DNA from: Urechis unicinctus
Taxonomy: Eukaryota; Annelida; Polychaeta; Xenopneusta; Urechidae
DNA: 64,000 nt
Assembly (NCBI GenBank): GCA_034190875.2
Contig: CM067354.1
Span: 39,424,025 to 39,488,024, forward strand
Reading direction: 5' to 3'
Part shown: in pieces, positions 9,001-64,000 of the stretch
Numbering within the stretch: position 1 is the stretch's first letter
Layout: every line of letters starts with the position of its first letter
The notes under the pieces: model-generated
What the model saw: the letters and a program-made list of their open reading frames with translations, nothing else
Told to the model about the DNA's origin: nothing
The model's database searches: none
Program-made: the position numbers and the translations under genes

Positions 9001-9952
9001 TGCCGATTTTACACGCATGCACGTTCGGTGAATAGCTAACCATTATCAATGGCAATCAGATTTTCTCACGTGCCTTTCATTTGGCAACCAGCAGTTAACG
9101 GGCTTTCTCGAAATGTCTTTGTTATTAAAAAAATACCGTACGCTATCCCTAATGTGCGAAAATTTATGTAAGATGCCATTGAGACAAGACGCTGAATACC
9201 TTAACGCTTTTGCATGATGCATGTAGGTTAAGGTAGGATACTGTAGCCTTAAATGAGCACATCAATTTGTGCGCATCTGTGTCGATAAATCACTAATGCA
9301 GGAAAACCATCGTGTGCTTACAATTGAATACCATCATTGCTTGAACGGCGGGACGCTTTACGGAATTCTAGTTATTTGTTTATTATGTACGTCTCAGTCA
9401 GTTATAATGGCAATTGATAATCGTGTCGATATAAGACAGATCCAAAGACGCAGTTATTGCAAGTCCCATGAAATGCATTGCAAAAAGAAATCTAGAAAAT
9501 GACAAGTTGCTGTTGGCCCATTATACTTTTTAAATCACTTGTAAATATGTTACTTTGAAGGGCGCTTACATGTTCACCCAAGATCATATATATATGATAG
9601 TGCTGACTTCTTCGGCTCGGTAATATGTGCATGTTTGTTGGCTTGTCGTCTTAAGGTACACACTTATGAGTCCATTTGGCTTGAATCCCGCTGCGCCGTG
9701 TATATCTGTGTTCTGCTTAAAAGTGTTAGGTAGCATTGAATTATGATTCACCTCACAAGTTTTATTTATAATACTGCTTTCCATTTATAATCACTCTTTA
9801 TCAAAAGTGTCATCTGTATTAGCATAAGTAGGTACGAGGCCATTAAAATAATACATTAGCGGGTTTTTTTGCATAAAAACGATGCAAATGAACGTCCAAA
9901 TGTATCAGAGTAGACATATAGTAGTTCAGAGTGTGATCAGACATAATTGCTC
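1..9952. other. intergenic DNA, no supported gene
   Basis: No tandem array, RNA gene or convincing exon pair was found in this AT-rich stretch. Open frames are short (at most 109 codons, at 6825-7154 on the minus strand), which is what chance gives at this composition. One plus-strand frame, 2906-3163, is 85 codons long with a charged C-terminal half, and a GTAAGT lies 22 bases after its stop. That donor is not in the frame, so I do not call it a gene. Confidence 0.6.
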
Positions 9953-10005
9953 TAATATATGTATATTTATATATATATTTATATATATATGTTTATATAT
10001 ATATG

Positions 10006-10060
<55 letters not shown>
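9953..10060. repeat. (AT)n satellite with TATATTTATATG variants
   Basis: An almost pure AT dinucleotide tract is preceded by imperfect TATATTTATATATATG units. At its right edge, 10057-10076, ATAGGAT and ATCCTAT form inverted arms around a six-base centre, which could fold into a small hairpin. It is non-coding. Tracts of this kind are prone to slippage and assembly length error. Confidence 0.9.
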
Positions 10061-10061
<1 letters not shown>

Positions 10062-10473
10062 ATATATCGATCCTATATGATAGCCGAACAGATAGAATTT
10101 GACCAAACTTGAACTACTGTATGACTTTACTCTGATACATTGTATGAGTCTCTGTGGGTGAACTGTTGTTATCTTATATTTGCAAGGCTGCGTAATATTG
10201 CAGCGGATGCCGACGGAATATATATATTACACTAAATCATATATAAATATACCCATACTTATTATTTCGATTTAGTAAGTTGTGACGTATGTTTCATTGA
10301 CGTAGGAATATTCTTCAGCACTTAAATATACACCCCCATATGTCTTAAATCTAGCCAAATGGTATTGCTAGGGTAAAATATGGGGCTTATTGCTTCCTTT
10401 ATCCATCTGTTGGTCGCTATAATTATAGCTGAACGAAGTCGTAAACTATTTCCTGCAGATGCCATAGATGGTA
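10061..10473. other. intergenic spacer before tandem duplication
   Basis: Single-copy-looking AT-rich DNA with no open frame of note. It joins the AT satellite to the first unit of the 0.7 kb tandem duplication. I see no regulatory or coding signal in it. Confidence 0.5.
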
Positions 10474-18048: not shown

Positions 18049-18117
<69 letters not shown>

Positions 18118-18497: not shown

Positions 18498-18601
18498 TTG
18501 AATATATATGCTAGAGAGTTGGATAATTCAAGCTAGGTCTAACCTTAAAGTGGGGTTTATGCGCAACATACTGTCCTTATGGATCAATACGTTTTTCAGC
18601 G

Positions 18602-19231: not shown

Positions 19232-20676
19232 AAGTCAACATCGATGACCAACTCTGAGTCACTGTCAAGTGATGGCATATAAAAACGCTCGATGATATCG
19301 CTGAATTCAGTATCCGAATGACGGTTTAAGGCATATACCTCAAAACATATTGCAATACCAAAACCAGGAAAAGTTGATGGGATTTTGCCTAACACTTCCT
19401 TTCAGCGTTATTGCTACTGGAATGCCAATTTCAGGCAACCTAATACATTGAGTGTTAGTAGGCCTGAGAATCACTTGCGCTGAATTGAGACAAAATATAC
19501 CCTGATGGCAAAGCGTCGTGGAAATGACTTTCTGGGATTAACCCAGTAAACGGCAGAATGGTCAGGGACCTAGCGCACATTTTTTGAACGGGACGATTAG
19601 AAACTTATTTCAGAATACTGTACAATATACTTCACAATTTTTACCATCATAGGAATTACGGGATCAAAATGATTGTACGTACCTCAGATCCGGTTGAGCT
19701 TGAGTTAACACGACACGATGAATTCACCTGAACTTAAGACAATATCGTCCACTTGAAATCTTACCTGTGAGATTTTCATATTGCTGATGTGATAATTCAT
19801 GTACCAACAATCTTCATGAACTCACACATAATTAACGATGGAACACCCTCCAATGTTGTTGATTTGCAGTCCGTTAATGCTCTTATTGCATTTCGCAATA
19901 GAAAGGTAAGGTTGAGATCGCTGTGGCCATGGTGCACCCAATAATATGGTGAATCTTGAAAACAAGTTGGACATGAGTCGAGCCTTCTGAGATTGGCGGT
20001 TTTTTATTTCTTTAAATGAAGGGTTCGTTATCAAAGCATTATCGTCGTCGCTTGTCCACAACATATGCAGACTTTCCAGTAGCCTCTATGCATTGACAGC
20101 TTATTAAATGATAATGGTAATCATTTATAAGTACTACAGGTAGGTGAACTTACCTACATGATATATTAGCAACCAATACAGATGACAGAAGGAATACCTA
20201 GGGTAATTGCCATACCCGTCGGCGTGCAAGGGAAAGGCATTTCCATTCCAAATAAGGGGTCTAACATTAAGCAATTTTCCGCTAAGCGATAGTCTGTTTA
20301 TGCACTGCTATACAAATATTTAAGCTATCTTGTTGGGTTTGGGGAGGGGGGGGGCGGTTTGGGTTTTGACCTGTATAATCTATTATTACTAGTTTGATCG
20401 AATATTGGATTGTTGTCTGTCCAATTCATATTCTAAGGTATGCACAAGCGTCGAAATCGACTCGTCATAACATTGCAGACGTAGCTGTAACAGAAATCTT
20501 CAATTCTGCATTTACTCGATAAACTGCAAGGGCCAATCTTTCGTATTACGTGCAAGACACTTTACGAGCCTAATCAACCGTTTTATAGTCATACATTCGG
20601 ATGATAGCCGTCAAAGCAATCTGCGACTGTCAGGCAACATCACGTCAATTCGTAGTTGATCATCCCAGCAAAAGTT
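19232..20676. other. spacer between satellite fields
   Basis: Unique AT-rich DNA. The only notable element is the G-rich tract at 20334-20363, listed separately. The longest non-repeat frame is 80 codons (19822-20064, minus) with no supporting signal. Confidence 0.5.
20334..20363 (+). other. G-rich tract with quadruplex potential
   Basis: Four or more guanine runs follow each other on the plus strand: GGG, GGGG, nine G and GGG, separated by TTT, A and a CGGTTT spacer. This meets the usual G3+N1-7 quadruplex rule and has a telomere-like GGGTTT rhythm at both edges. It sits about 310 bases before the large satellite field. It is too short and irregular to be a true telomere array. Confidence 0.75.
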
Positions 20677-21004
20677 GTATCGATGAGTTATTACTTCACT
20701 CTAGCTGAAGCTGTTAACGGGCGACAAAAATAAGTTTATTAGCATTTTGTGTTCGGTTCCTTGGACAATATGGAAATCAATATTGATCATGCTTTTGCCA
20801 GGGACAATCCACTTTGCCAACTACTTTACAACGTAAGTGTCACATTATTACTGTAACCCTCGCATTAAAACCATACTTACGTAGCATCATAAAATAATCT
20901 GAAGAATATAATAGCGGCGATAAACATGAATTATTTCTAAAACGTTTCATATAAGTACACATTTAAATAAATGATTATATATATATATACATATACATGT
21001 ATAC

Positions 21005-21059
<55 letters not shown>

Positions 21060-22034
21060 TATATATACATAAATATACATATATATATATGTACAAATAT
21101 ATACATATATAGATATATACATATTTATAAGTATATATATAATATATATAAATATATGTACTTATATAAATATATATACATATAAAAATATATATATAAA
21201 TATATATATATATATGCATATATATGTATTTATAAATATATGTTTATATCTAAATATATATACATATATATATTTGTATATATAAACATAAATACATATA
21301 TATATATATCTATATTTATATGATAAGCCTCTCTATATTTATATGATATGCAGTCTATCTATATATTTATATATTATATACAATTATATGTATGTATTTG
21401 TTTAGATAAATTAATATTGACTATATAAATATCCATATATTTATATAATTTTATATATATACATATATATTTGTATTCATATAGATATATTTACATTTAT
21501 ATATGTACAAAAACATATTCATACGTAAATTTACATATATATATACATATATATATATATACTTATATATGTATATATACATTTATATATATATATGCAT
21601 ACATAGGTATATGAATATATACATATAAAGATATGTATATATTGTAATATATATATGTATATACATATACATATGCATAAATATATATGTATACATATAT
21701 TTATATGTATATATTGATATTCATACATACATATATATATATATATTTATATGATATGCCGTGCTATATTTATGTGATATGACTATCTATATATTTACAT
21801 ATTATAATAATATACATATATGCATATGTATTAAAGTATTATATATATATGCATATATATGCATAAATATGTCTATACTTAATTATTTCTTTTATGTATA
21901 CTTATATATTGGTATGTATTTTTATATGTACACACACACACACACTCACATATATATATATATATATATATTTATATATTCATATATATATATATACCTA
22001 TATATATATTTATATACATATATAAATGTATATA

Positions 22035-22104
<70 letters not shown>

Positions 22105-22365
22105 CATGTATCTATTCATCAATTTGTATTGATATATGTACCTATCTATATATTTATGTTTATAGATGTGTATGCATGCATAAGTATGCGTATATTTATA
22201 TGCATGTGTATGTGTGCATATTTGTATGTACGTATGAATGTATGTATGCATGTATGTAGGTATGGTTGTATGTATGTATGTAACTATGCATGTATGTATG
22301 TATGCACATATGTGTTTATGTATCTATGCATAAATAAGGGTATGTTTAAATGTATGTATGCATAA

Positions 22366-22400
<35 letters not shown>

Positions 22401-22637
22401 TGTATGTATGTATGTATGTATGTATGTATGTATGTATGTATGTATGTATGTATGTATGTATGTATGTATGTATGTATGTATGTATGTATGTATGTATGTA
22501 TGTATGTATGTATGTATGTATGTATGTATGTATGTATGTATGTATGTATGTATGTATGTATGTATGTATGTATGTATGTATGTATGTATGTATGTATGTA
22601 TGTATGTATGTATGTATGCATGTATGTATGTATGTAT
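20677..22637. repeat. higher-order satellite, unit 1 (1,961 bp)
   Basis: The unit has three parts. A leader of about 290 bases (20677-20965) looks like ordinary single-copy DNA and starts GTATCGATGAGTTATTAC. An AT-rich field of about 1.2 kb contains TATATG and TATAAA variants, a short AC tract near 21930 and a pure AT tract near 22034-22100. It ends in a TATG array. The leader recurs at 22638 with only scattered changes, so the period is 1,961 bases. Unit 1 lacks a 298-base block found in unit 2 (the gap lies between 21806 and 21807). Confidence 0.93.
22371..22637. repeat. (TATG)n array, about 67 units
   Basis: A tetranucleotide array is nearly pure from 22371, with a single TGCA interruption near 22617. 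The four-base period is not a multiple of three and the unit has no stop in any plus-strand frame, so all three frames read Met-Tyr-Val-Cys repeats; the minus strand reads His-Thr-Tyr-Ile. These are not genes. It runs straight into the leader of unit 2 at 22638. Confidence 0.97.
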
Positions 22638-22962
22638 GTATCGATGAGTTATTACTTCACTCTAGCTGAAGCTGTTAACGGGCGACAAAAATAAGTTTAT
22701 TAGCATTTTGTGTTCGGTTCCTTGGACAAACTGGAAATCAATATTGATCATGCTTTTGCCAGGGACAATCCACTTTGCCAACTACTTTACAACGTAAGTG
22801 TCACATTATTACTGTAACCCTCCGCCTTAAAACCATACTTACGTAACATCATAAAATAATCTGAAGAATATAATAGCGGCTATAAACATGAATTATTTCT
22901 AAAACGTTTCATATAAGTACACATTTAAATAAATGATTATATATATATATACATATACATGT

Positions 22963-23007
<45 letters not shown>

Positions 23008-23265
23008 TTTTATACACATAAATATACATATATATATATGTACAAATATATACATATATAGATATATACATATTTATAAGTATATATATAAATATATAAA
23101 TATATGTACATATATAAATATATATGCATATAAAAAATATATATATATAAATATATATATATATGCATATATATGTATTTATAAATATATGTTTATATCT
23201 AAATATATATACATATATATATTTGTATATATATACATAAATACATGCATATATATCTATATTTA

Positions 23266-23479
23266 TATGATAAGCCTCTCTATATTAATATTATATGCCT
23301 GTCTATATATTTATATATTATATACAAATATATGTATGTATTTGTTTAGATAAATTAATATTGACTATATAAATATCCATATATTTATATAATTTTACAT
23401 AAATACATATATATTTGTATTCATATAGATATATTTACATTTATATATGTACAAAAACATATTCATACGTAAATTTACA

Positions 23480-23511
<32 letters not shown>

Positions 23512-24057
23512 CTTATATATGTATATATACATTTTATATATATATATATGCATACATAGGTATATGAATATATACATATAAAGATATGTATATATTGTAA
23601 TATATATATGTATATATATATACATATACATAAATATATATGTATACATATATTTATATGTATATATTGATATACATACATACATACATATATCTATATT
23701 TATATGATATGCCGTGCTATATTTATATGATATGACTATCTATATATTTACATATTATATACAAATTTATGTATTTGTTTAAATAAATGAATACTGACTA
23801 TAAACATATCCATATATTAATATACTTTTGTATAAATAAATATTTGTATATTTTCATATCGATATATTTACATTTATATGTATAAATAAACATATTTATA
23901 CGTAAATTTATATATATATATATATATGTATATATATACATATATATGTATATATATACTCATATATATATATATATATATATATATGTATACATCAGTA
24001 TATAAATATATACACATAAATAGGCTTAAATGTATATAAACTCATATATATGTAAAA
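23266..24057. repeat. two about 430 bp subunits nested in unit 2
   Basis: Within unit 2, a block starting TATATGATAAGCCTCTC (about 23266) is followed about 432 bases later by a related block starting TATATGATATGCCGTGC (about 23698). They share ordered words, including TTGTTTAGATAAATTAATA versus TTGTTTAAATAAATGAATA and ACATATTCATACGTAAATTT versus ACATATTTATACGTAAATTT. Unit 1 has the first block (from about 21316) and only the start of the second, so the half-unit was lost there or gained here. Confidence 0.8.
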
Positions 24058-24199
24058 ATAATATACATACATGCATATGTATTAAAGTATTATATATATA
24101 AGCATATATATGCATAAATATGCGTATACTTGATTATTTCTTTTATGTATACTTATATATTGGTATGTATTTTTATATGTACACACACACACACACACT

Positions 24200-24263
<64 letters not shown>

Positions 24264-24307
24264 TATATATATATATACCTATATATATATATTTATATAC
24301 ATGTATA

Positions 24308-24390
<83 letters not shown>

Positions 24391-24655
24391 CATGTATCTA
24401 TTCATCAATTTGTATTGATTTATGTACCTATATCTATATATTTATGTTTATAGATGTGTATGCATGCATAAGTATGCGTATATTTATATGCATGTGTATG
24501 TGTGCATATTTGTATGTACGTATGAATGTATGTATGCATGTATGTAGGTATGGTTGTATGTATGTATGTAACTATGCATGTATGTATGTATGCACATATG
24601 TGTTTATGTATCTATGCATAAATAAGGGTATGTTCAAATGTATGTATGCATAAAA

Positions 24656-24656
<1 letters not shown>

Positions 24657-24686
<30 letters not shown>

Positions 24687-25190
24687 TGTATGTATGTATG
24701 TATGTATGTATGTATGTATGTATGTATGTATGTATGTATGTATGTATGTATGTATGTATGTATGTATGTATGTATGTATGTATGTATGTATGTATGTATG
24801 TATGTATGTATGTATGTATGTATGTATGTATGTATGTATGTATGTATGTATGTATGTATGTATGTATGTATGTATGTATGTATGTATGTATGTATGTATG
24901 TATGTATGTATGCATGCATGCATGTATGTATGTATGTATGTATGTATGTATGTATGTATGTATGTATGTATGTATGTATGTATGTATGTATGTATGTATG
25001 TATGTATGTATGTATGTCTGTATGTATGTATGTATGTATGTATGTATGTATGTGTATGTATGTATGTATGTATGTATGTCTGTATGTATGTATGTATGTA
25101 TGTATGTATGTATGTATGTCTGTGTATCTGTATGTGTATGTATGTATGTATGTATGTATGTATGTATGTATGTATGTATGTATGTGTGTA
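24657..25190. repeat. (TATG)n array, about 130 units with variants
   Basis: A second and longer TATG array is pure for its first 250 bases. It then carries variant units: three TGCA repeats at 24910-24922, TCTG units near 25017, 25079 and 25117, and TGTG units toward the end. The variants cluster in the right half, as expected if the array grows from the left and decays on the right. Long open frames here (up to 217 codons, minus) are by-products of the period. Confidence 0.97.
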
Positions 25191-26139
25191 TAACTGTATA
25201 GATTCATATAAATAAATACATGCATATGTGTATGTCAGTATCAAGGACAATATTGCGAACTTTTCCGTGCATTCGAGTTAGCTGGACCGTTGCGGAGCCT
25301 TTCTTAACCGTCTGTCAAAGCATTATGAATCGGAGGAGTTACTCCAAGTCTTAATCACTTTATGCTCTACAATTTCGTATTTCAATGTACAGCCACCAAA
25401 AGATCGTTTATCACTCCTGATAGATCGCTGGTGGTTTATTTTGCAAAGTTACGGATCAGCGCATCGACATGCTCTGCAATTCTGTGCTGTAATTTGCCAC
25501 ACCGGAACTAGACCATTGTAACGCCGGCAGGCAGCATAGATCAAATATTTTGTCTGGTTATTTAGTGCCCGTAAGGTCATCACATCAGCATGCTTTACCA
25601 ACGCATCCTAAGCATCCTTATAGTATGATGACATTTTGTCCAATAACATTGCTATTTGGGAAATCAACCTTCGATATAATCATTGTGTGCAAGTCAATAA
25701 CCGCAAAACTTACTTCCTGTGATGTTCCTATAGGCAATACAATTACAGGTGTGCAAAAACACTAGTTATTGTTTGGTATCCAAACTACATCAACACGTTG
25801 CCCTTCGTTGAACAAGCGCTGGATCACGTTTTTTTTACTCATGTGACATTCCAGTTTGTCGCATTGCGAATAATATTCATACATCTTTCCGGGTTTTGCT
25901 CAACAAATATATTAGCAATATGGTCCACGGGTAAGTTGAAACCGGGACTGTAGATCTATTAAGTATGCCATTGTATTACTGTAACAGAGTCGCAGTTATA
26001 GCCTGGTGGCTAGCTGGACCAGAATGCTTTAAAGTGAAAAAACAAACCAATATTAGCAGTGTGGTCTCCGCCTCTGTTGTAGCCTGGTGGCCAGCTGATC
26101 ACTGGACTGTTGAGCTAAATAATATGCTTGCCAACTAAT
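25191..26139. other. spacer with a degenerate internal duplication
   Basis: Unique DNA follows the TATG array. Between about 25912 and 26115, words recur in the same order: ATATTAGCAATATGGTCC and AATATTAGCAGTGTGGTC, then TAGCCTGGTGGC twice (about 26000 and 26082), and GGACTGTAGATC versus GGACTGTTGAGC. This looks like an old duplication of roughly 110-135 bases with later rearrangement. No gene is supported. Confidence 0.5.
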
Positions 26140-44668: not shown

Positions 44669-44696
44669 AATTATCGCTGTTGTGTTTATCCACATT

Positions 44697-49907: not shown

Positions 49908-50131
49908 GCATCATATTTTGTTCTGTGTTTGTAAGACAAAAAATCATTGACTAATATATGAGTGCTCATTACATAACATTCAAACAAATAGACATAAAAA
50001 ATGTTCAGTACAAATAACACCATACGTTTTGTGTAGCTAGGCAATTTCAACACTGGGACAACAATATAATCCACACAAAAATAACAACCAGAAGAATGAG
50101 ATATTTCCTGATTTTAAGAATATTACCTTAT

Positions 50132-50179
50132 CTACTCTTTTAAAAGCCAGTAAACTGTAATAACCCTCCTGTTGCCCTC
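50132..50179 (-). CDS. terminal exon of the minus-strand gene
   Basis: A strong acceptor, CATGGCTTTTTGCAG, is followed in phase 0 by EGNRRVITVYWLLKE and TAG. A 225-base untranslated region then leads to AATAAA. An alternative frame through the same exon (GGQQEGYYSLLAFKR) is also open and would continue past a GTAATA donor-like site, so the C-terminus is not certain. Confidence 0.45.
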   Translation of the reverse strand, partial: EGNRRVITVYWLLKE

Positions 50180-51802
50180 CTGCAAAAAGCCATGAATCCA
50201 GAGAACAAATTGCCAACAAGCACCATGTCTAAATATTTTATTTTGTTCCTCAACAACCACATCTTACTCCTTTAGTAAGTACGCCCAGTACCAGTTATTT
50301 ACCTCAGGGACCATCGGGTCGAGCACAACTTTTTCCTTCTTAGGTAATGCAGTATGGTCTGTTTTTACAACTTCGCCACTCCACCGGGGTGGCCCTTCCC
50401 TACATTGAAGGCAGATAGACTAGTCTGCAAATCGCTATCTGTGACCAAAATTGCATGAATGTTTTTCGAGCAACTTAAGAGTGCTAACTGTTGAGCTGTA
50501 CAATACCTTCAAATTCTCTTTCCGTGACAGCTCTAAAGATTCAGCAGCCACTCGACTCTGCTGTAGGGCCTGGTTAATTATCGATGTGTTGCCAAGGAAG
50601 CCTCTGCGAACCAGATTGACTAGCTTTCGGCCTGTCGAGGTCTATACACCAATGAGAACCAGTAAAAATAAAGCCCAACATTGTAACCCCTATTTACTAA
50701 AAAAGTCAGCGATTCAATTCGGTTAAAGCAAGGTAAAGCAATAGTAACTTGTTTCAAGAAATTGAGGCTCCTCGGCCTCCTCTTCGGGCTGGTCTGCAAC
50801 ACCCACCTCTTCCATGCGTCTCGGACACCTGTCATGATGAACAATTTAGAAGCATTACGCACATCCTTCTTAATCATAACGGATATACTGAGTTCAATAA
50901 AAATCCGTGAACAGAATCCAATTTATAGGAACCAACCTCAGTTCCACACAGGTTGTCAGAATCTGTACCACGACCCCTACCCCAGCCTCTTCTTGTAAGT
51001 GATCCCATTCTTGGCGTTTGGTTTTCCTTGAAAATTTGAAAGTGAGTTGGCTCAATTCAATCAATAATGTCATAATTAATACAGTGTTTGAGCCAAAAAC
51101 CTAAAAAAACTGATAATTGACAGACTCTGCCAAAACAAGTGGTAAATCATACAGATTTAAGGTCCTCTCGGACATCTGGCACTCCAATTTTACAAAAATT
51201 ATTCCAGATATCCGAGGCTTCTACAACACCAGCTTGGTGATAAAGTGGACAATTATGTACACACATTCCAAACCATACGTTAAAAGTCTCATCAAAGTGG
51301 GTTGCAACAAACTCAAAATGCCACGAATCAGAACCAAAATCTCCCCACCCGTCTACTGTCCCTTGTCCCACACGATGATACGTACCACCTCAAACTTCTA
51401 GCGCGGATGTTTTGGTATATTATAACGATCTTGAGGGCGACCCCAATCCCTTGATTTATAACATAATTGGTCCAGGAAAATTAAACTGGTTTGCCGTGAA
51501 AAAGCACCGATAATTGTATGTGAAAAAATCAAACTCCGAACAAGTGTCATCCGCTTTATATTCCGCCTTATATTCCAAAACGTGGAACAGGGTTTGTCTG
51601 CAGGTGTGAAGCTTTATATTGTTAAATATTCGGTGATCTATTGTAACAAGAGTGTTCACTATAATCAGGTGGGTTCTTTGTTCATACAACATACGAAAAC
51701 ACACCCACTCCAAAAGAAGACTCTTCAAGAAATATGGGGGTCAAAAGACTCACCATTTCGGCTGCTCGCGTTTCCGCCTTCTGTCGAATCCGCACTGCTC
51801 AT
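50132..51802 (-). CDS. multi-exon gene, protein family unknown
   Basis: A minus-strand gene is assembled from sequence signals. Exon 1 is 51802-51754 (MSSADSTEGGNASSRN, donor GTGAGT). A coding block follows at 51389-51153, then 51100-50937, 50887-50829, 50631-50507, 50419-50303 and 50179-50132 (stop TAG). Introns between the later blocks are 52, 49, 197, 87 and 123 bases, all GT-AG, and all five junctions keep frame under one solution. Visible features are aromatic/acidic sequence in the 51389 block, a hydrophobic stretch (TVLIMTLLIEL), a second one (VGVVVQILTT), a helical Gln/Ser/Arg segment and a CLQC motif. The exon or exons joining exon 1 to the 51389 block are not settled. The donors at 50936 (GTTGGT) and 50828 (GTGTCC) are weak. 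No known family was recognised. Confidence 0.55.
50303..50419 (-). CDS. internal exon with CLQC motif
   Basis: Thirty-nine codons in phase 0 at both ends, reading SICLQCREGPPRWSGEVVKT and onward to LDPMVPE before a GTAAAT donor at 50302. The C-x-x-C could bind zinc or form a disulfide. The acceptor used is GCAGACTAG. The slightly better TTTGCAG five bases upstream (exon start 50424) would open a different frame ending at TAA after 19 codons. The longer reading is preferred because it joins the last exon in phase. Confidence 0.45.
50507..50631 (-). CDS. internal exon with helical Gln/Ser/Arg segment
   Basis: Forty-one codons plus two bases, reading from RKLVNLVRRGFLGNTSIINQ through ALQQSRVAAESLELSRK to ENLK. 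The donor is GTATTG at 50506 in phase 0. An upstream acceptor with a strong pyrimidine tract (TTCTCATTGGTGTATAG, exon start 50641) gives the same frame with a different entry phase. The peptide suggests an alpha-helical, possibly coiled region. Confidence 0.5.
50829..50887 (-). CDS. short internal exon
   Basis: Acceptor TTTTTATTGAACTCAG at 50888, then 59 bases reading ISVMIKKDVRNASKLFIMT with one base at each end. The previous exon's two leftover bases complete a Ser codon. The donor is GTGTCC, which is weak. The same frame can be read further, to 50754, before an alternative GTTACT. A Glu/Pro-rich reading in another frame at 50795-50755 (QPEEEAEEPQF) also fits by phase but would need a 35-base intron. 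Confidence 0.4.
50937..51100 (-). CDS. internal exon with hydrophobic segments
   Basis: The acceptor is a textbook CAGTTTTTTTAG. The exon enters in phase 0, matching the block before it, and is 54 codons plus two bases. It reads VFGSNTVLIMTLLIELSQL, then a basic stretch (KFSRKTKRQEWDHL), then EEAGVGVVVQILTTCVEL. The donor GTTGGT is weak, but phase with the next exon agrees. The 52-base intron before it is very short. Confidence 0.45.
51153..51389 (-). CDS. internal coding block of the minus-strand gene
   Basis: Seventy-nine codons without a stop, bounded at the 5' side by TGA at 51392-51390 and leaving at a GTATGA donor at 51152. It contains GWGDFGSDSWHFEFVATHF and CVHNCPLYH and is rich in Trp, Phe, His and Asp, unlike the random frames elsewhere. 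The true acceptor is uncertain (AG at 51390, 51366 or 51360). It could be an extracellular or enzymatic domain, but no family was matched. Confidence 0.45.
51754..51802 (-). CDS. first coding exon of the minus-strand gene
   Basis: ATG at 51802 opens a 16-codon frame, Ser/Gly/Asn-rich, that ends with one base before a perfect GTGAGT donor (51753-51748). The exon is CpG-rich (GGAAACGCGAGCAGCCG) and follows a CRE-like GACGTC. A frame that accepts this phase opens after TAG acceptors near 51658 or 51641 and runs to a TAA at 51456, with an acidic/aromatic segment (YKAEYKADDTCSEFDFF). That is the likely second exon, but its donor is unclear. Confidence 0.5.
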
Positions 51803-51900
51803 GACGTCGCAACTCTGTGTTGTAAACAAATGACCCTTCAATACGCATGCGTCATTTTCCCGTCGACATGTGCTCATGCTTGTAAACACGGGTGTGACCG
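51803..51900 (-). promoter_or_regulatory. CRE-like promoter of the minus-strand gene
   Basis: Directly upstream of ATG 51802 lies GACGTC (51803-51808), the core of a CRE. A second CRE-like TGACGCATGCG sits at 51845-51855 on this strand, and CpGs are frequent here in contrast to the surroundings. No TATA box is seen. The arrangement could drive transcription both ways, but no first exon was found on the plus strand. Confidence 0.4.
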
Positions 51901-53149
51901 ACAAATTTCGATACCGTGTAGTCGACGATATAGCGTTGAACCAGTCCGCAAAATGGTTTAAATGAGTTCAAAAAGAGTTGTTCTATTAAATGGATAAGAA
52001 AAAACGCATAACATTTGTTTGGAAAAAGTGCATCTCTAATGTGAACACATGCCAGCGCGTTACATTGCAACATTGTTGTCTGAGATAACTAAGATACTCA
52101 TTTCAATACGGCTGCAACATGTGCTCGACAACACTGGTCAGGTTTTATATGCTTGATGACGCTGACGCCAACCGCAGAGAAAAAAACAAACTCATCTGAA
52201 AGTCCGAGTAGGTATAAGCTAATAGCTTAAGTTTTGCTTGCTACCGCAACGTCACATAATCATGATGTCTGAATGTATGTAGTCCATTTTCCTAAATGCC
52301 CCCAAGTTTTTACTTATCGTAATGTTTCGTACTGGTATCTAAACGTGTTAAAAATGTGCTCCATTCAAGCACGCGTATTTCTGTGATGCTATGCTTAGTT
52401 GATGCATTCGATCAGAATGACATATTTTCCTTTGACACAAATATTATATATTATCAATTACATCACTTATAATCCACTCTGCCCATGTGGGCATGGATAA
52501 ATAGCATTTTTTTATATCATTGTCTTTTTAAATGGTATAATATCTACACAGCGTAGGTGCAGCATCTCACTTTCACTGATGGTAAACAGATATTTATACC
52601 ACGAATACTATGACGGCATGACATACGTCCTGCGTAAGCCCGGATTTACATACCCGCATACATTGTAATGTCATTCTCAGTACAACAATCGACGATAAAC
52701 CATTTGGTGAGTTGTGCGGTTACTATCGGTTGGCTTACATACAGTAACTACATGCATCCCTATATTGGTTTGCTATTCCATGGTAAATGCTACGTAAATC
52801 GATCGAATGCTTGATCAGAACAAAGGGTCCTCTAACGACAATTTACACGCTGAAGATACCCTGCTTAGTCCATCTTTACGTGACCTACTTTCTTCTATGT
52901 GCTCCATGGTGGTGCAAACAACTAGGCATCTACAGTTACAAATATAAACAAAATACGGCAAATGTGCCACTAACTATTCAAGCATTTTGCAAACGTAATG
53001 TTATCTTATGCGTTAGCCTATGTCATTCTTGAGAAACATTAAATGCTGCGTCAGCGCAGTGACGATTATGGCTCCCGTTAGAGATCAGATCATTGTCTGA
53101 AAGCAGTCATTTATGTTCGTTATTGAGTTCAACAGCTCAGGAAAAGCCC
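51901..53149. other. intergenic DNA, possible small transposon scrap
   Basis: No gene is supported. At 52155-52250 a segment with GATGACGCTGACGCCAAC, an A-rich run and TAAGCTAATAGCTTAAG (imperfect inverted repeat) resembles the decayed miniature elements common in invertebrate DNA. I cannot define its ends. The 81-codon plus-strand frame 52787-53032 is unsupported. Confidence 0.35.
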
Positions 53150-53560
53150 AGAGAGGTCGGCAAAGCACTCCCGACAGCATGTGCGTTCCGTAATATTTTG
53201 TAACCTCAGCCGATTCGGTCGAATCGTATTGCAATCGTGATCGTGACAGATTCCCAAAATCCTAACAATGTCCTGTGATGTCTGGACGCTGTCGTGACGA
53301 ACGGGCATGATTCAGAGAAATTGGTCATGCCGTTTTTTACCGATTAAGCTCAGAATGCGACAGGATCATTGCCTGATCAGTATCTAATCTCTGTCGGATC
53401 GCATTAGGGAGAATCGGTACGCTGTCAGGATGGTATTGGGAGTTTTCTACCATGTGAAAGATACAAATCGGATCAGATACGGATCAGAACGGGATAATCG
53501 GGGCGGATTTGGCTGTAAACGACAATATCTGATTGTTGTCGTGATTAGATAAATGTTTTT
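53150..53560. mobile_element. possible decayed transposable element
   Basis: About 400 bases with composition and word use unlike the flanks: repeated GGATC, CTGTC and CGGAT words, including GACAGGATCATTGCC, GTCGGATCGCATTAGG, GTCAGGATGGTATTGGG and GGATCAGATACGGATCAG. The rhythm suggests diverged internal repeats of an element body. No terminal inverted repeats or target-site duplication could be fixed and no protein is encoded, so this is a composition-based guess. Confidence 0.3.
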
Positions 53561-53876
53561 ACAAATTTGTGAATTTTCCACCACGAATAACAGGATCTTG
53601 ATTTGACTTTCGACAAATTTTAATCCGGCATGGTCCTATCAAGGACGCAAGTAAAAATACCGAATGTGTGTCTTAGGCTTAATGGGAGATATTATCCTAC
53701 AAAAAAAGTTTTGACTGATCTACATGGCTAATTATTGCCAGCCCCGAAATCGCCCAATGACGTACAGGCGACAGCTGAAGCACCTGTTATATGACCCTTT
53801 TCGTCTACCAGTGTCGTAATGATATTCAAGGTCAAATCTTGGTAACTTTTAATTCAATTGTGTGAGTTCTCTATTA

Positions 53877-54023
53877 TGCTACATGGATATAAAAGAAATC
53901 AACAAGTCTTTATGTATTGTACTTGTTGAATATTTAAAGAAGGCTCATCAGCAATATGGCCGGAGGGTATGCATGTCCAATTATTTGGGACGTTTGCAAT
54001 GTTAGCCCTGATGAATGGAAATA
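53877..54023. repeat. 147 bp tandem duplication, copy 1
   Basis: First of two head-to-tail copies at an exact 147-base offset. It starts TGCTACATGGATATAAAAG and ends GATGAATGGAAATA. 147 is a multiple of three, so reading frames carry over between copies. Copies differ at roughly ten sites. Confidence 0.95.
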
Positions 54024-54228
54024 TGCTACGTGGATATAAAAGAAATCAACAAGTCTTTATGTATTGTACTTGATGAATATTTAAAGAAGGCTCATCAGCA
54101 ATATGGCCAGAGGGTATGCATGTCGTATTTTTTGGGACGTTTGTAATGTTAGCCCTGATGAATGGAAATATGTTTTGTGTATGGCTGATATTGAGGCAAA
54201 AAAATTTATACGGAGGGTTTGTTGGTGA
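53883..54228 (+). pseudogene. frameshifted coding relic, duplicated exon
   Basis: Two coding-like frames alternate. Frame X, from ATG 53883, reads MDIKEINKSLCIVL, then EYLKKAHQQYG, and stops at 54005; it recurs in copy 2. Frame Y, from ATG 53956 and again from ATG 54103, reads GYAC, then WDVCNVSPDEWKY. In copy 2 it continues LCMADIEAKKFIRRVCW to TGA at 54228. The helix-rich X part followed by a Trp/Cys-rich Y part looks like one ancestral protein broken by a frameshift near 54110. The family was not recognised; a transposase or other element protein is possible. The 147-base duplication preserves frame. Confidence 0.4.
54024..54171. repeat. 147 bp tandem duplication, copy 2
   Basis: Second copy, ending in TGATGAATGGAAATATG before sequence diverges. 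The ATG of copy 1 (53883) is ACG/GTG-like here, but the frames within the unit stay open in both copies. Confidence 0.95.
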
Positions 54229-57200
54229 CAGTACCGCCCGCCACTTATGATTCTTATGAAATGATGGAGATAACTATGGTTTCATTCTTCATTGCTGACA
54301 ATCCCGCGCGTTATTGTTTTAGGTCAGTAATCGGTTTAAAGAGGATTGCATTATTTGAGCGGATAAAACGGTTCTTCAGTGTATTACTTCGGTATAAACC
54401 CAGTTACCCCTATTGCGAAGCGGTGACGCACACTTAAATAAAATTGGTTACGGTGAAGTGATGCATAATAGTGGTAATAGAGTTTATTGTCTAAGATTCG
54501 TTTGGGCGCTTACTGTTGCGAAGTTAACGTTGCGGTACAAGAGTTCATATATACTATTCAAGTATCATCAATTGTAAGTATCTCCATAATGTTAGACAAT
54601 TAAATGTGCGCTCTAACCGAGGGGGAATGGTAGGAGTCACCCTCCTCTTAAATCCAAACGCAGACATCATTTGTGCCAACGGAGTAATATACAGGCATGA
54701 TTTGCAAACCTATCATCAGGTGTCACCGCTTGTGCAGAGATGGCGTGTAAAGAGCTAGTGCATTGTTTAGGTCATCAGTGATTGCCGTTGTTGCTGTCAA
54801 TGTCATGTGTCCCCTCTGAAATATTCTGGAGAATAAGACAAAGGTTACTTCTTATATTCCTGCAACGCCAATATAATCGTCACGCAAAGCAATTTATCAA
54901 ATCATGCATCGGGTTATTGCCAACAGGACCTTTGAATAGATAGAGTGTGAGTGATGGAATTCACAGAGGGTATAAAATATATTGCGCAGTGTTTGTCAAA
55001 GCTTTTTGTAAGGGTTGCAATATATGTCTGGATTTTGTGAAATCTAATTTGCGTATGTTTCATATCGTAAAGTGAATTTCATGTGCCAAATACATAATTG
55101 AGCAAATGTGCTTCTGTGATCGGCTCACGCCACTTTACCTGTGTTGGATCCAATTGAATGCGATATTATCAAATTGAACAGAACTTCTAGGAGTGACCTA
55201 TTTAGAGGGTCTTTGCAAGATAATTGTCGTTATAACACACTAAGGACGCCTCAATATTTAACGACAACCCGCCATCCAACGCAGTTGGCTAACCACATAC
55301 CGTACAACACACCTAGTTTGTCCATTTCTTTTAAGCTATCCCATCGATTAATTTCATGATGGTTTTTATGCTTGTCATGCAATAGTCGTCCTTTATGTAT
55401 TCTTATATTTGGTTTCCCAGTTCTGCATGAATGACAGAGGTGTTTTGGACTGCAGAGCTAAAAGATATAATAGACTAATATGAAAATATATAGGCCCTAC
55501 AATCGGACCTACAATACCAATCCACGGTTATACTGCCATAAATTCATACTGCCTGCCTAAAGTGAAAACAAAATATTGGTTATACTTATCCAGATATTAT
55601 CAAATTTGTACCTACTATACATATGTTTGGAGAAAAGTTAATGCTTCGACGAAGTGAGGCATTGGCGTTTGCTTGTAAAAACTTACAATTACATCAGGAA
55701 CGCATATAGGTGAATATTTTGTACCCATTGTTATTTTTAAGCATATCAGTTTTATACTTAATTTGCATATGCGATGTCTGTCGCAAATTAAACGAGATGT
55801 ATTTGTGTTACTGTTTTATTGTATTGCATATATTTAGTAATTACAGAATTTGTATTAATTTCTAATATGCATGGGGCACACAAGCCATTCTGGGTTTCCG
55901 TCCCATGTTGAAAGCTTTTATATTTATATTGCATGTTGAAAATAAATGTCGTCCATACATATATGCATTTATAATCTATTCAATGTAATAATATAGTCTT
56001 ACCTCGTTAACAAGATAACGCAGACGAGTAATTAGTTATTTGTCCATAAACCCGTTCCAATAATTATATACTCAGAACATTATATACTGTGCATAAATGT
56101 GTTCAATAAGGCATTAATTAGGAGCCTGTCAGCTTGACGTATGTTGTAATGGCAAAATCATGAACGCCAGACATCTATCAAAGCGACGAAGTAATACATG
56201 TTAACTGCGTTCATTACTGGCACGCCCACGTGCTCATGAGAGCGGAAAATCAACGACTAAAGCTGTAGCTTAATGTTTGGTTGACATTATTGGCGCATTA
56301 AAAGGGGGCACGTCCATCGTGTTGCGTCCAACGGAGAGTAAACGATTATCAAATACATTACATGGAGTTTTTGTATTATGCGTCTTATCTATCAAATAAA
56401 TACGGCAATATACTTGTATTGAAGTAAGTGGCGGAGTGAATATTCTGAGCTAGACCGGTTATAAGATACTCAGTTTCTATGTAAGTGTCTTTTCTTTTGA
56501 CATACACATGATGGCGTAGAGGTTTCAATCAGCTCGTATCAAACACGCATTATTCACGATAAATGATTGTTGGCCTGCAGTACATGACACCGACTCGTAG
56601 TAGGTGTTCATGGTTGTATTTATCCTATTGGCTGAAACCATTTTGAATTGTGTGGAATGGATGTGCACTTGCAACTATGATTGCGATGCATGATATATTA
56701 ATTGGCATTGGTTTATATAATAGTTCAAGCTTCTTGGACAGCACGTCTTTGCATATCATTGTACTACCGTTCTTTCTACATTATGGCCGCTTTCAATCTA
56801 CCGTTACCCAAGATCAATCACCATTTTTACATTGCAACAATCCTTCTAAAACTTACCTTCAATGCATGTCAAATTGTTAAATCTTTTTGAAAGGAAGATT
56901 ATATTGTTGCAGAAAAGTAGGTTTACGAATAACTCTTTAATACTAGGTTCGTTCAACTACAATGACGGGGTGCAGATTCACTGAGTTTACCCCATATGCG
57001 TACGGCTTGTCACCAGATCAAGATATTGTGTGATTGATGAAACTGATAGAACAGTTATTAAAATTAACTTTATGAGGGTCTCAGTTGACCACGCGATATA
57101 TCACTGGTCGTCAGCTTTCCAAATACCGAATTCGTAAATATACGAAAGTCTTGCCATGGAGTCATGTGATAACATTACACACCACTAGTAGATTAGTAGA

Positions 57201-57261
57201 GGATGCCGGGGTTGTGGTGTAGGGAAGGCAGGTTCAGAAAACATGTGTATAAAATAGACGG
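54229..57261. other. intergenic DNA, no supported gene
   Basis: AT-rich sequence without repeats. The plus-strand frame 54219-54437 (72 codons) overlaps the end of the coding relic in another frame and is unsupported. Frames 55141-55359 and 56650-56880 are short. No regulatory signal was identified. Confidence 0.5.
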
Positions 57262-57400
57262 GGTATCATTCTGAGAAATGGATGAGTAGCAAGTGGAAGT
57301 ATTGTACTGAGAAATATATATGTGGAGGGTCTGGTAGTGGCTGACAGAAGCAGATGGGTAGAGGGTAGTGTCGTGCTTAAGAGGAATAGGTGGATTGGTA
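57262..57400. repeat. degenerate about 35 bp G/A-rich minisatellite
   Basis: Unit starts are visible at CTGAGAAATGGATGAG (57271), CTGAGAAATATATATG (57307), CTGACAGAAGCAGATGG (57341) and CTTAAGAGGAATAGG (57376), giving spacings of 36, 34 and 35 bases. Each unit ends in a GT-rich GGGTAG or GGTAGT segment. The strand is strongly purine-rich. Related sequence occurs near 62.3 kb. Confidence 0.6.
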
Positions 57401-59129
57401 ATCGAGTTGTATCTAACAGGAAAGATGGTCGCGATGTTGCAATGAGGTATACATGAGTAGGAGGTCGGCGTCAGTTATTCATATTTTAACGCTAATTTTG
57501 CGTCTGCACAAACTGAACAATGCATTGCAAAAGTGGTGCGTCAACGGCTGTACAGTCAATTTGCAGCTAACAGAGCTAATAAGGTTTGAAATGATGCCAA
57601 GATTAATTGCCATCATGACTTCAAGAACTACCCTTTTTTTAGTCTCATCCAGATTTTACTGTATTTTTAGCCACGCCCATCAGTATTTACGCTTTCTGAC
57701 GTTGAGGTGTACGCGATATTTTCTTTCGTGATGCTTGTATATATTAATCATATTACGGGCAACCACAGTTATCATCACAGAAGGTAAACACATGGCAGAT
57801 GGCTGATAAAGCTGACAGCTGCGAGAGCCAGTTGCTTTGTGGGCGTTGCATACTATGATTGATGCGCATCAATAGGCAAGTTGGGATAGATATGAAGGTG
57901 AAGAACTGGTCGTAATAGGTTCAAATTACTTTCTAACACAATTCCCTCAAGTGAATGCATTTGTCAAGTGTGATGGACAATTATGAGACATTCCCGTTCT
58001 TTAAGACGACTAAATGTGTCATTGTCATATATGGAATGTCGAATGAGGAAAATGCTTTGAAAGTATCAATGGTCGACGAACCGTTTCAAACACTACAATG
58101 TGTCTAAATCAGCAGCACTTATTTGTTTTATGCTATGCGTGAAATGGTGTTGACTGACAATTCATCTATGAAATGTAACACGAGTAGCACAGACTTTCAA
58201 TTCTGCACATATACAACCAGTTCTTTGTAGGGATTCTATATTAAGGCGCACGCTAACAATAGATTGTTATTGCTTTTGCTTTGAAAAGCGGAAACGACTA
58301 CTAGCCCACAAATAATTGAATATATATCACTTCTTTGAGCAAGGCCAGTACGATTGATGCCTCACCAGTACCTATGTTACTGCCTCATCATATTCTATAC
58401 ATTGCCAACATATGCTATTAAATTCACCATTGGGAGATCCGCTCATACTTAACACTTATCTCTTGATAATAGTAATATGTTACTGTCAAACCCAAAGACG
58501 TGTGACTATCGCTGTTGGTGGACCTTGCTGTTATGATTTCCTTATGTCCATCAGCTGTTACAATTAATGTATGCTGGTTTCTTTATGTTGGTTGCAGTTT
58601 GTATTTATTAATCAATCTGTTAACAAATATGCATAAGCTGAAGGTTTTTTCTCTCAGTTTTATTCTCGAATCATTGCTTTATGATTATTAAAACCGTCAG
58701 TCTGTCATTAAAAATATTGTTCCAGATTGTGCTTTGTGTTTTTTATAATGGTAGAGATAACTCAAATAGGAAGTTTAAGTAATCCGTTAATATATATTTT
58801 CCTTCATGATACTGTAAAAAGACGTAGATCAATGAATGATTCACATACAGCAAGCAACACCTTTAAAGGCAAAACATTTTGTTTCTGCCATGTCAATGAT
58901 TGTTTTCAACAAAATGATTTGGAACAATGTTTTCAAACCAGCACGATATTTTTGGGAGGTTCGTAGATAATGGTTTGCTGCAAGTTGTAATTTGCAAAAC
59001 GTTACTCATTCCTGACGACTGCTTGTGGGTTATGTGACGTATAATTATGGGTTAATCATCATTTCCTTAGAAAATATACCCTAAGTAAATGTTTAAGGCA
59101 CGCCCTATCCCTAAGTCACACGAGACTTA
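57401..59129. other. intergenic DNA, no supported gene
   Basis: The first 70 bases continue the purine-rich character of the minisatellite. After that the DNA is ordinary and AT-rich. Frames 57453-57731 (92 codons) and 58727-58966 (79 codons) have no supporting signals. Confidence 0.5.
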
Positions 59130-59400
59130 CGGGCTGTGTACACTGTGTACAGGCTGTCCACTGGCCCCGTGACGGCCAAAACCATGCGGGTCTGTGCGGG
59201 CCTACACTGTGTGTCGTGCTGCCCCATGCGGAACCCGTACGATCTTATTCGAAAATGTGTGGCCCCGCACGGGCCCAGTAGAGCCCGTAGCCAACAGTTT
59301 CATACGGGGCTCTCTACGAGCTCGTTTAGTGCACGTATTGGCAATATCGACCCCGCTGCCAAATCTCGTAAACCGTCCACATAACGCCCGCAGACAAACG
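59130..59400. other. isolated GC- and CpG-rich island
   Basis: This is the only long GC-rich stretch in the window, clearly above 50% GC by eye. It carries recurrent GCGGG, ACGGG and CCCGTA words (GGGTCTGTGCGGGCC, CCCGCACGGGCCC, ATACGGGGCT) and a GTGTACACTGTGTACAG near-palindrome at its left edge. Three overlapping frames of 71-82 codons are open on both strands simply because TA-containing stops are rare here. It may be a CpG-island promoter or a GC-rich transposon fragment; the repeated ACGGG words favour the second. Confidence 0.5.
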
Positions 59401-60704
59401 GTGAAGCATGTGACCACAATTAATCACAGGGGATGATATTCTTACTGGCTTCCTATGGGCTACAGCCCTGTCAAGCCATCAAAGCATTTAACCACATCTT
59501 CTTACGGGGGATGGGCAATCGATTCACAGCGAGGTAGGTATCTTGCTTGAGGCAGGTTTCTTTGTTGGGAATAATGATATGATTTATTAAGAAGCAAGTA
59601 CTCTGTAATTCCCAGAAGTCGAAAGAATAAAATAAGTGAGTAAAGTAACAAAAAAGTTCGCTTTGTACGATTCTCTGGATATCTATTTACATACGCCCAC
59701 AGGTACTCTGTGAAGTGATCAGCTGGTGAAATCAAACCATGTCTATTCGGCTCTGATTGATGTACCCTCTGTCTACTTAATCAAAGCATAGAATATAACG
59801 CTGCGTTTACATATTCCAAAATTTGTTCGCTCGATATCGACCATGAGGCTTTTTTCATACTCAGCAACATTATGCTGCATGATATGTATTACGATCCATT
59901 GTCATCATGTATTGCGTTCATCTAAAGCCCATTGTTATGGGTGTAGAACAGGAAAATCGTTAGGCATCAGGTTAAACCAGTTTGATATCGATCACACGCT
60001 CATATGATCTAAATTTATGGCTCCTTCTGTTAGATAAAGAACTAAACATGGGTGTGTATTTGGGACATTGATGTTAAAATCGCCCGCACGCAGCGAACAT
60101 CAGTTATATTAACTCAATTGAGCTTGATATAAATCGGTCGTAGAGGCTTTCAACGCAATTCGCTGAGATTACATTGCTCCCCAGAGTTTAGATGAAATAT
60201 ATCTCATCAAGTCGATGACGAGTCTAGGTACTGCTTCCGTTACTTCCTTGCTATCTTTGTTATTAATTAAAACCTGGCTTGCGCATGCTGACTGGATCAC
60301 GCAACGACAGAGCACATTTTACGTGGCAAACCGCTGGTTAGATTTTACTTATTGCACATCATATTGATTAATCGTTGATTAAATGAGGTATTACCTCGAT
60401 GTAGCATTACAACACCCGCAGAGTGGACGGCAATGGACCCGCCTGCAGCATCCGCATCCAAGCCTGTTCGATAGTCTGTAAGAATACATAGTTCACATGG
60501 TAGGTAAGATGCATTTAAGAATCAAGTTATAGAATCATGTTACCTCCCGCACTTGAAGGCCACCAAGTATTTATCGTCCATATCCAATTTCAGATATGGC
60601 ATCCGACTTATGGTTGAGAACGCGAATGAATGAAGGCTACTGCATTACACATATCCTGGGTACAACATTCATCTTATGTATATAAATCATCTCACATATA
60701 TCAC
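59401..60704. other. intergenic DNA, no supported gene
   Basis: AT-rich sequence between the GC island and the 18-bp minisatellite. The longest frame is 77 codons (59502-59735, minus). Nothing else was recognised. Confidence 0.5.
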
Positions 60705-61320
60705 CAATGCCACGCATGAGCATGACACCAACCTCTCGTATAACACCAAGCTCACGAATAACACCCAGCTCACGTATCACGTATGGCACCCAGCTCACGT
60801 ATGACACCCAGCTCACGTATGGCCCTAGTTCACGTATGACAATTATGTCCCGTATGGCACCCAGCTCACGTATGGTACCCAGGTTACGTAATGCACCCAG
60901 CTCACGTATGGCACCCAGCTTACGTATGGAACCCAGCTCACGTATGACAATTAGCTCACTAATGGCACCCAGTGGACATATGTCACCTCGTTCCCAGCTT
61001 ACACATGACACTTAACGCACGTATGGCACTAAATTCGCGCTTGACACTTAGCGCACGCATGGCACTAAGATCACATATGACACCTAGGGCACGTATGGCA
61101 CCGTACTGTAATATCACACCTGGTGCACGTTTTCTATACCGCCCACGTATGCCACGCAGATCACGTATAATACTTATCATATCCATCACAAGTATGACAT
61201 CCAGCTCATTTATGACACCCTGCTTTCACACTACACTTGGCTCAACTAAAACGCACGATCACAATCATGTTAATCTGACGTATGACAACCAGCCCACGCA
61301 TCACATCACGTATATAATAT
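60705..61320. repeat. 18-bp minisatellite, hexapeptide-coding on both strands
   Basis: The unit CACCCAGCTCACGTATGG (and CACGTATGA variants) repeats at 18 bases, best preserved from about 60770 to 60960 and more diverged to 61320 (ACTTAGCGCACGTATGGC type). Because 18 is six codons and the unit lacks stops, long frames stay open on both strands: plus 60707-61015 and 60972-61322 (Ser-Ser-Arg-Met/Ile-Ala/Thr-Pro repeats), minus 61011-60637 (Ile-Arg-Glu-Leu-Gly-Ala/Val repeats). No flanking splice sites or non-repeat domain mark any of them as a gene. Confidence 0.85.
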
Positions 61321-62200
61321 GATCATGAGCGTGACATAGCGTTGAAAAAGATATTTGAGCTGACCCGCCTTCATCGTCCGTGTTGTAACTGCTTAAGGTA
61401 GAAAGACACAGCATAACCTTAACCACAAAAATCCATTGTTAATATAAACAAAATTACCATTCACATTTGATTTTACACGCTTAAGCAGCATAAAACATTG
61501 AATGGTCAGTTTGCAAAGCTATTAAATAACTGCATCAAACGTGGGGGGCACAAAGACACATATTGACCCTAAAACCACTAACGGTACTGTCGTATTATTA
61601 AATACATCATGTCAAGATTTGAATGATCGATCCACTGTGCAAGACACACAATGCAATTTGTCCATCTATGAGACTCTTGGTTTTTTAACCACCTTGACGG
61701 CATTCCTACTAGCAGTTTGCGATTGTATGATGGCTATATTTAGCAAAGCGCGTTACGTAACCAACAAGGATCAGGACATTGATGAGTGTGGTTGTAGATA
61801 AAAACAAGTTAGCAGTTGTCGTTACCTGAATAAAGGCTGTTTTATATATTCGATACCGAATAATGCCTTGCAGTTTCTTTTTGTGAGTTGAAAGTAACAT
61901 TGCTTTTAGTGCTTCTCTTCTGCTAATAGTAAGGTAGGTTTTTAGCATAAAAATGGGTAAACAAAAACAAGAAACAACACGAGACTACAAACACAATTTC
62001 GTATATATTTATGCGTTTATGTGCATCATCGAACATTACTGAAAAATAATTGTTTATGGAGAACAAGTGGTTTGTTCCGAATATTCGTTTGAATATTCGC
62101 CCTTAAAGAATGTATGCAAACATAGATCCCAGTCAAAAATTCACGAGTATATTGAGCTGCCTATCTGAGACAAGGCTTGAATCTTCGCAATGTACTAAGA
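61321..62200. other. intergenic DNA
   Basis: One plus-strand frame (61541-61801, 86 codons from GTG) has a hydrophobic centre flanked by polar ends rich in Thr/Asn/Asp, and ends DECGCR. It could be a membrane-peptide exon, but the frame opens at a plain stop codon and has no splice or promoter support, so I leave it unannotated. Confidence 0.4.
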
Positions 62201-62209
62201 ATAATAGAT

Positions 62210-62420
62210 CATGAAAGATTGCGGGCCTGGAAAGTATTAGAGGAAGTGAAGTATGGAATGACAGGGCAGCAGAACGCAAGGGAAATCAATGGAAAATGCA
62301 GATGTTAATGAGAGGAACAGATTATTCGAGGCTCGGGGTGTTATTTCGAAGAACAGATTGATGGAAGGTCGGGTAGATGTTGAACGAAAATCATGGGTTA
62401 ATGGAAAGCCGTAGGAATTG
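62210..62420. repeat. degenerate about 35-38 bp G/A-rich minisatellite
   Basis: Purine-rich sequence with recurrent GAACAGATT and GAAAATCATGG words, for example GAGGAACAGATTATTCGAGG, GAAGAACAGATTGATGGAAG and GAACGAAAATCATGGGTTAA at about 35-38 base spacing. The phrase CGGGGTGTTATTTCGAAG resembles CGGGGTATCATTCTGAGA at 57259, so it is probably the same repeat family as the 57.3 kb array. Confidence 0.45.
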
Positions 62421-64000
62421 CGAAGTAAACGAAGGCTTCAACAAAATGGAACTTTCTATTGCTCTTTTTTTTAATGACATCAGCGTTTTCGATTTTAGTG
62501 TCAAAATAATAGATTGTAATGGGGTTGTCGTATTGATCTTATGGTGTGATATTTTGAACATCATAATAGTGTGACTCGTTATTGTATGCTTCAAAAGGTG
62601 CTTGTGTTCATGACTTTGTAAAGCTCGACTGACTTTTACAGGTGAGATGTTATCATACTAATCACATTCCTATATCTGACGGGTCATCAAAAGGCAATAA
62701 AAGCCGTCGGTTTAATAGAAAAGTAATTGATACTGAGTTACACATGTTATGCCACTACAGGATCAGTCAATCAATGCATCATGTATGAACCAGTATAACT
62801 GTAGCTATGTAGTATATAAACGGTCTTTGAGACATTTATTTTGCTAGTTATGTTTTTTTGGACAATTACGTGGCGCGTATTCAAATGGTCTAAGATTGTT
62901 GTATTCGTTCCTTTGTTTATGTTTATATGTACGATGATACAGATACGCCACCTACTGGGTCATGGTGTTATGAGCAGCGTTTTATGATGAACACCAACGA
63001 CGACGTATCGGTGTAGGTGTCATTGCAACAACCCACTTGGTATTCCTGAGCGCAAATACATTAAACCAAGTGTATTTTGTTTTCTAAATGATACCACATG
63101 AGACGCATTTTGCGGGACATAACAATGAGAACCATTTATAAAGAAAAGTCTGGTGTTAAAATTATTCATTTCGTTCAATTACAGCAGGTAATTGAATTCG
63201 ACCCTATTGATAAAATGTATGCAAGATACATTGTAATGATGTTGTGCCGTATCAATATATTACATGATATTTTTACTGAATAAAGAGAGGAACAGCAAAG
63301 ATGTGATTGTTCGAGTTGTTTAACGATTCTCCTTTTGTAATAGAAACAGTGTAGAGAGGCGAGAGTCGGAATGCTGCGAACCACGCTTGTGTGCGGGGCT
63401 GAAACATACACAATGGCGAGAGACGGATGGACGGAGCTGAGCCAAAATTGTTAGGGCATGTTATTCTGTTCGAAACATTGTGTGATGGATGGTGACCATA
63501 TAATAAGCTTTGAATTACGAAGATGGGGATTTTCCGCTGCGATTCAGGGGAGGCGTGTAAATCGTCATTGGAAGGACACGTCTGAATAATAGACCTTAGT
63601 TTTAATTCGATGGATATATATCTAGGGTTCTGCATGGATAGTGCTAATTGCAAACATTCAAACCAAATTAAGCTAAAGAATAGCCCACCATACTGCTCAG
63701 CACGTCCTATAAAAATAATCGCTCAGCGACCTGCCCATGGTAATGTATGAATCATCTAACCATACAATACTCAGTACATTACTACTGATTTCAAACCAAA
63801 AAAAAATTGGAGGTAGAAGACTCCACCCTTTAATTTAAATGATGTAATTCCCGCAGTGGCACGAATACGATAGTTAATTTCTTTACATAAATACTGCTCT
63901 TCGTATTCTACCGTTTAGTCACCTACAAATTGCATTATTCTGTGTTCATCAACTTAGAACCGAGATGGTTAACGCATGGTACATGTTACATTATTCTTTG
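62421..64000. other. intergenic DNA to window end
   Basis: No supported gene. A further purine-rich stretch at 63285-63560 resembles the two minisatellites in composition but shows no clear period. The 126-codon minus-strand frame through it (63273-63653) is the antisense of this low-T strand and is best explained by composition. A short A-run lies at 63797-63806. Confidence 0.45.

Follow-up and report, generated by a model that had tools for sequence, protein, structure and literature searches.

In yeast, segmental duplications made by microhomology/microsatellite-induced replication (MMIR) are joined at microhomology of 5 to 10 bp or at microsatellites, and the synthesis is Pol32-dependent and Rad52-independent (PMC2518615). 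The HINE elements of oysters have unique flanks, tandem central repeats, and a microsatellite of mostly 4-base motifs, and in tandem arrangements of Helitrons the inner copies are often truncated at the 3' end (PMC7492417). In higher-order satellites, composite units follow one another head to tail.

We analyzed a locus in a 64-kb stretch of Urechis unicinctus DNA (the window) in which a composite segment occurs twice. Its closest parallel is yeast MMIR: in both cases the join lies at a microsatellite with microhomology of at least 5 bp, and the breakpoints lack long homology (PMC2518615). Here, however, the segment is about 2 kb long, non-coding, and old enough for the copies to differ by 2.4%. 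The locus also resembles the non-autonomous Helentrons HINE and Pearl, in that a unique flank, tandem repeats, and a tetranucleotide microsatellite lie in one segment. It differs from those elements in the order of its parts, in showing no 9-base inverted match between its ends, and in having no dispersed copies in the window (PMC7492417). With higher-order satellites it shares the composite unit set head to tail, but the window holds two copies.

Both the sequence and the alignment place the two units side by side, each running from a leader of ordinary DNA through an AT field to a (TATG)n array. The features are as follows, all on the plus strand.

20676 to 22636, plus strand: unit 1, 1961 bp, aligned with unit 2 at an offset of 1961.
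20676 to 20680, plus strand: left breakpoint word TGTAT in unique DNA, matching the (TGTA)n array; to the left, the match ends after these 5 bases.
20681 to 20975, plus strand: leader 1, ordinary DNA, from sequence and alignment.
20976 to 22370, plus strand: AT field and TATG-like transition of unit 1, without 298 bp that are present in unit 2.
22371 to 22641, plus strand: (TATG)n array of unit 1, with a 248-bp pure run, a GCATG variant, and a 20-bp run to the join.
22637 to 25191 (end approximate), plus strand: unit 2, with the complete array, ending at the 3' flank.
22637 to 22641, plus strand: junction of array 1 and leader 2, the same TGTAT, a 5-bp microhomology.
22642 to 22939, plus strand: leader 2, ordinary DNA, from sequence and alignment.
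22940 to 24656, plus strand: AT field and TATG-like transition of unit 2, containing an internal tandem duplication of about 437 bp.
23760 to 24057, plus strand: 298-bp block absent from unit 1, in the second copy of the internal repeat, from the gap list of the alignment.
24657 to 25191, plus strand: (TATG)n array of unit 2, with a 256-bp pure run, GCATG variants, and about 270 bp of imperfect array.

The first-pass annotation held that a composite segment, and not a microsatellite alone, had been duplicated. The sequence, the alignment, and a self-BLAST of the window all bear this out; with the dust filter on, positions 20676 to 22634 matched 22637 to 24592 at 83.5% over 2016 columns, gaps counted. 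It also had the array of unit 1 abutting the leader of unit 2, and the alignment is indeed gapless there. Two of its measurements needed correction: the alignment moves the start of the repeat from 20677 to 20676, and the distance between leaders, put at 2 to 2.5 kb, is 1961 bp. The units differ in length, since array 1 falls short of array 2 and the 298-bp block of the AT field is absent from unit 1. In unit 2 the final pure TATG run stops at 25182 and the degenerate array at 25191.

Neither outer flank of the pair is repeated in the window self-BLAST. After array 2 there is a unique 3' flank and no third leader in the window. With up to 3 mismatches allowed, a 23-base probe from the leader matched twice in the 64-kb window and not once in any of 100 dinucleotide shuffles. 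The annotation's term "higher-order satellite" and its proposal that the leader may seed a larger satellite family therefore find no support in the window, which has two leaders. We regard a young higher-order satellite with further copies elsewhere in the genome as extremely unlikely: its head-to-tail composite units with a shared boundary fit that picture, but the copies number only two, and unit 2 gives way to unique sequence where a further leader would stand. The exact 23-base leader probe found 0 matches among viral and prokaryote contigs, and a 416-base query had no match among plasmids; these collections are not expected to include this organism, and the two results carry little weight.

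The leaders align with 294 matches, 5 substitutions, and 1 internal 1-bp indel (the alignment counted 3 gaps, 2 of which are the ends of the stretches supplied). Up to the array, the units have 1643 matches and 40 substitutions in 1683 aligned bases, together with 18 gap events, 2 of them end effects of the stretches supplied. The 369 gap bases include 298 that form the single block missing from unit 1.

Extended leftward, the leader match ends after exactly TGTAT, and the same five bases continue the (TGTA)n array. The join is thus at a microsatellite with 5 bp of microhomology, and the breakpoints share no long homology. Microhomology of at least 5 bases arose in 1915 of 227820 random joins between a unique position and an array phase of the window (0.84%), a test based on one junction and made after that junction had been seen. 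The arrays differ at their ends. Array 1 has a pure run of 248 bp up to the GCATG variant and then only a 20-bp run to the join, whereas array 2 has a pure run of 256 bp up to its GCATG variants and, between these and the 3' flank, roughly 270 bp more of imperfect array. Array 1 matches only the front of array 2. Unit 1 therefore appears to close with a truncated version of the array, and unit 2 to have retained it in full, including its own end.

Two copies, a 5-bp microhomology at their join, and a first array matching only the front of the second are direct observations. Together they point to one local tandem duplication with one of its breakpoints inside the (TATG)n microsatellite, which we consider the probable origin of the locus. 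On this reading, the product looks like a cassette because one breakpoint fell inside the array, and a pre-existing modular unit is unnecessary. Most likely, the locus is an ordinary, tidily joined tandem duplication of a type already known, and its structure is explicable without any function.

We propose the following course of events. The ancestral locus would have had a single copy of each part, with leader and AT field leading into a long (TATG)n array. While the AT/TATG tract was being replicated or repaired, an array end about 20 bases past the GCATG variant may have paired with the lone TGTAT at 20676 to 20680, and synthesis from the paired TGTAT would then have recopied the leader, field, and array. 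Fork stalling, template switching, and the direction of the event are parts of this scheme that we infer. A scar of this kind would also be expected from microhomology-mediated end joining. Compared with shuffled sequences, two AT stretches fold slightly better (z of −1.39 and −1.79), the leader is ordinary (z of +0.73), and the (TATG)n stretch folds worse (z of +2.48). Folding thus gives no strong support for stalling in the AT/TATG tract.

The same junction bears on a possible assembly artefact, in which two haplotypes of a heterozygous locus were set head to tail where one contig ended in the array and the next began in the leader. Long simple repeats are common contig ends. A divergence of about 2% with small differences in array length is what two alleles could show, and the unrepeated flanks are as expected for the overlap of two contig ends. 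However, the join is gapless and the 64-kb window contains 0 N bases, a 5-bp microhomology is expected in the small fraction of arbitrary joins given above, and it would take a coincidence for a contig to start in unique DNA precisely at an array-like word. We judge an artefact to be unlikely, though a live rival of the duplication.

The divergence raises a separate point. Long tetranucleotide arrays should drift faster than their flanks. The flanks have diverged by 2.4%, yet the pure TATG runs are only two repeats apart (62 and 64), which is odd for a long-standing duplicate. Possible reasons for the small array difference are chance, conversion, an allelic relationship, and divergence that arose as the duplication was made.

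The AT field has a history of its own. The internal tandem duplication of about 437 bp in unit 2, with word spacings of 437 and 433 bp, is older than the duplication of the unit. Because the 298-bp block sits in the second copy of this internal repeat, unit 1 probably lost the block.

A mobile element, such as a non-autonomous Helentron, would also combine a unique leader, AT-rich internal repeats, and a tetranucleotide microsatellite, and would here form a tandem pair with a truncated inner copy. Unit 1 does have the shorter 3' array, like the 3'-truncated inner copies of tandem Helitrons (PMC7492417). In the leader there are a 12-base palindrome, ATCAATATTGAT, as well as an inverted pair of 8 bases (20831/20875). 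A search of 25180 to 25400 for a HINE-like 3'-end palindrome gave only one 8-base inverted pair in the 3' flank (25201/25324). These short palindromes and inverted pairs may speak for such an element. A comparison of 20640 to 20975 with 25180 to 25600 for HINE-like subterminal inverted repeats gave 0 inverted matches of 9 bases between leader and 3' flank, against a mean of 0.75 and a maximum of 6 in 200 shuffles. The 64-kb window has only two leaders, and beyond this pair no dispersed copies were found in it. The AT fields point the same way: units 1 and 2 share 552 complex 14-mers, whereas other pairs of AT fields share 0 to 21, the printed examples being TATA-like. We consider a mobile-element origin very unlikely.

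A local tandem duplication thus remains our preferred reading. If it is correct, a composite "cassette" can form in one step when a tandem duplication has one of its two breakpoints in a microsatellite, which might be how a satellite begins.

The window also contains three further local tandem duplications whose units exceed 140 bp, at 18066, 10476, and 53875; they count in favour of the local-duplication reading, and the join is definable in two of them. This count leaves out 18-bp repeats at 60.7 to 61.1 kb, a non-adjacent pair at 44686/44985, and an AT-rich inverted repeat at 9899. Between 10476 and 11888, ordinary DNA is tandemly duplicated (701 bp, with a second copy of 712 bp), with 2 bp of microhomology at the join. 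This join is unremarkable, because 17% of random unique joins have at least 2 bases of microhomology; at least 4 bases occur in 2%. Between 18049 and 19240, an AT field with a unique tail of about 90 bp occurs twice, the tails at 18514 and 19145 being 631 bp apart. Here again, tandem duplication has joined unique DNA to an AT array; the microhomology of the join is not definable because the join sits in AT repeats. The duplication at 53875 to 54172 has a 147-bp unit, copies about 95% identical, and 4 bp of TATG microhomology at the join, read by eye.

Differences between the copies of the 10476 pair are clustered. Its 50 differing columns form 9 clusters separated by identical runs as long as 95 columns, whereas 1000 random placements gave a mean of 28.2 clusters and a minimum of 20. 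The control scatters single columns, and multi-base gaps therefore inflate the clustering. The corresponding counts, observed and random, were 5 and 7.3 for the leaders, 5 and 5.0 for the pair at 53875, and 3 and 4.3 for the tails of the pair at 18066. The clustered differences at 10476 could reflect complex local mutation, conversion, or an assembly effect.

A broader idea is that long AT/TATG fields in this genome repeatedly seed tandem duplications of adjoining unique DNA by error-prone synthesis, so that copies are born diverged. It would accommodate pure TATG runs two repeats apart beside flanks at 2.4% divergence, the second AT field at 18066, in which a duplicated unique tail likewise adjoins an AT array, and the clustered differences in the 701-bp duplication at 10476. 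However, the clustering is seen for the 10476 pair alone, under a lenient control, and there is little or none in the three other pairs. We hold this idea to be highly doubtful. Several tandem duplications in one window, one of them with clustered differences, would matter only if they turn out to be general and are upheld by long reads.

The window appears to be gene-poor and rich in simple repeats. AT repeats are also a feature of the penaeid shrimp genome (PMC6341167). It has 126 stop-to-stop open reading frames of at least 75 aa. A Pfam search with 10 of these 126, at an E value of 0.1, gave Symplekin_C as the sole hit (E value of 0.046; 14.1 bits against a cut-off of 25). A six-frame Pfam search of 50001 to 64000, with X at stops, had no hit at an E value of 0.01. 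ARAGORN with the bacterial code detected no tRNA in the 64-kb window, and Rfam gave no match there at the gathering score. Outside the AT fields, the CpG ratio is 0.91.

Smaller repeats are found elsewhere in the window. At 60725 to 61101, an 18-bp tandem repeat is open on both strands, with frames of 124 aa on the minus strand and 109 and 119 aa on the plus strand; the minus-strand frame has no Pfam match. Between 44686 and 45079 are two copies of about 100 bp that are 79% alike, non-adjacent, and about 300 bp apart. Finally, positions 9899 to 10141 hold an AT core between 14-base inverted arms, AATGTATCAGAGTA and its complement at 10128 to 10141. This stretch is 73.6% self-complementary over 258 columns and is possibly a small inverted-repeat element.
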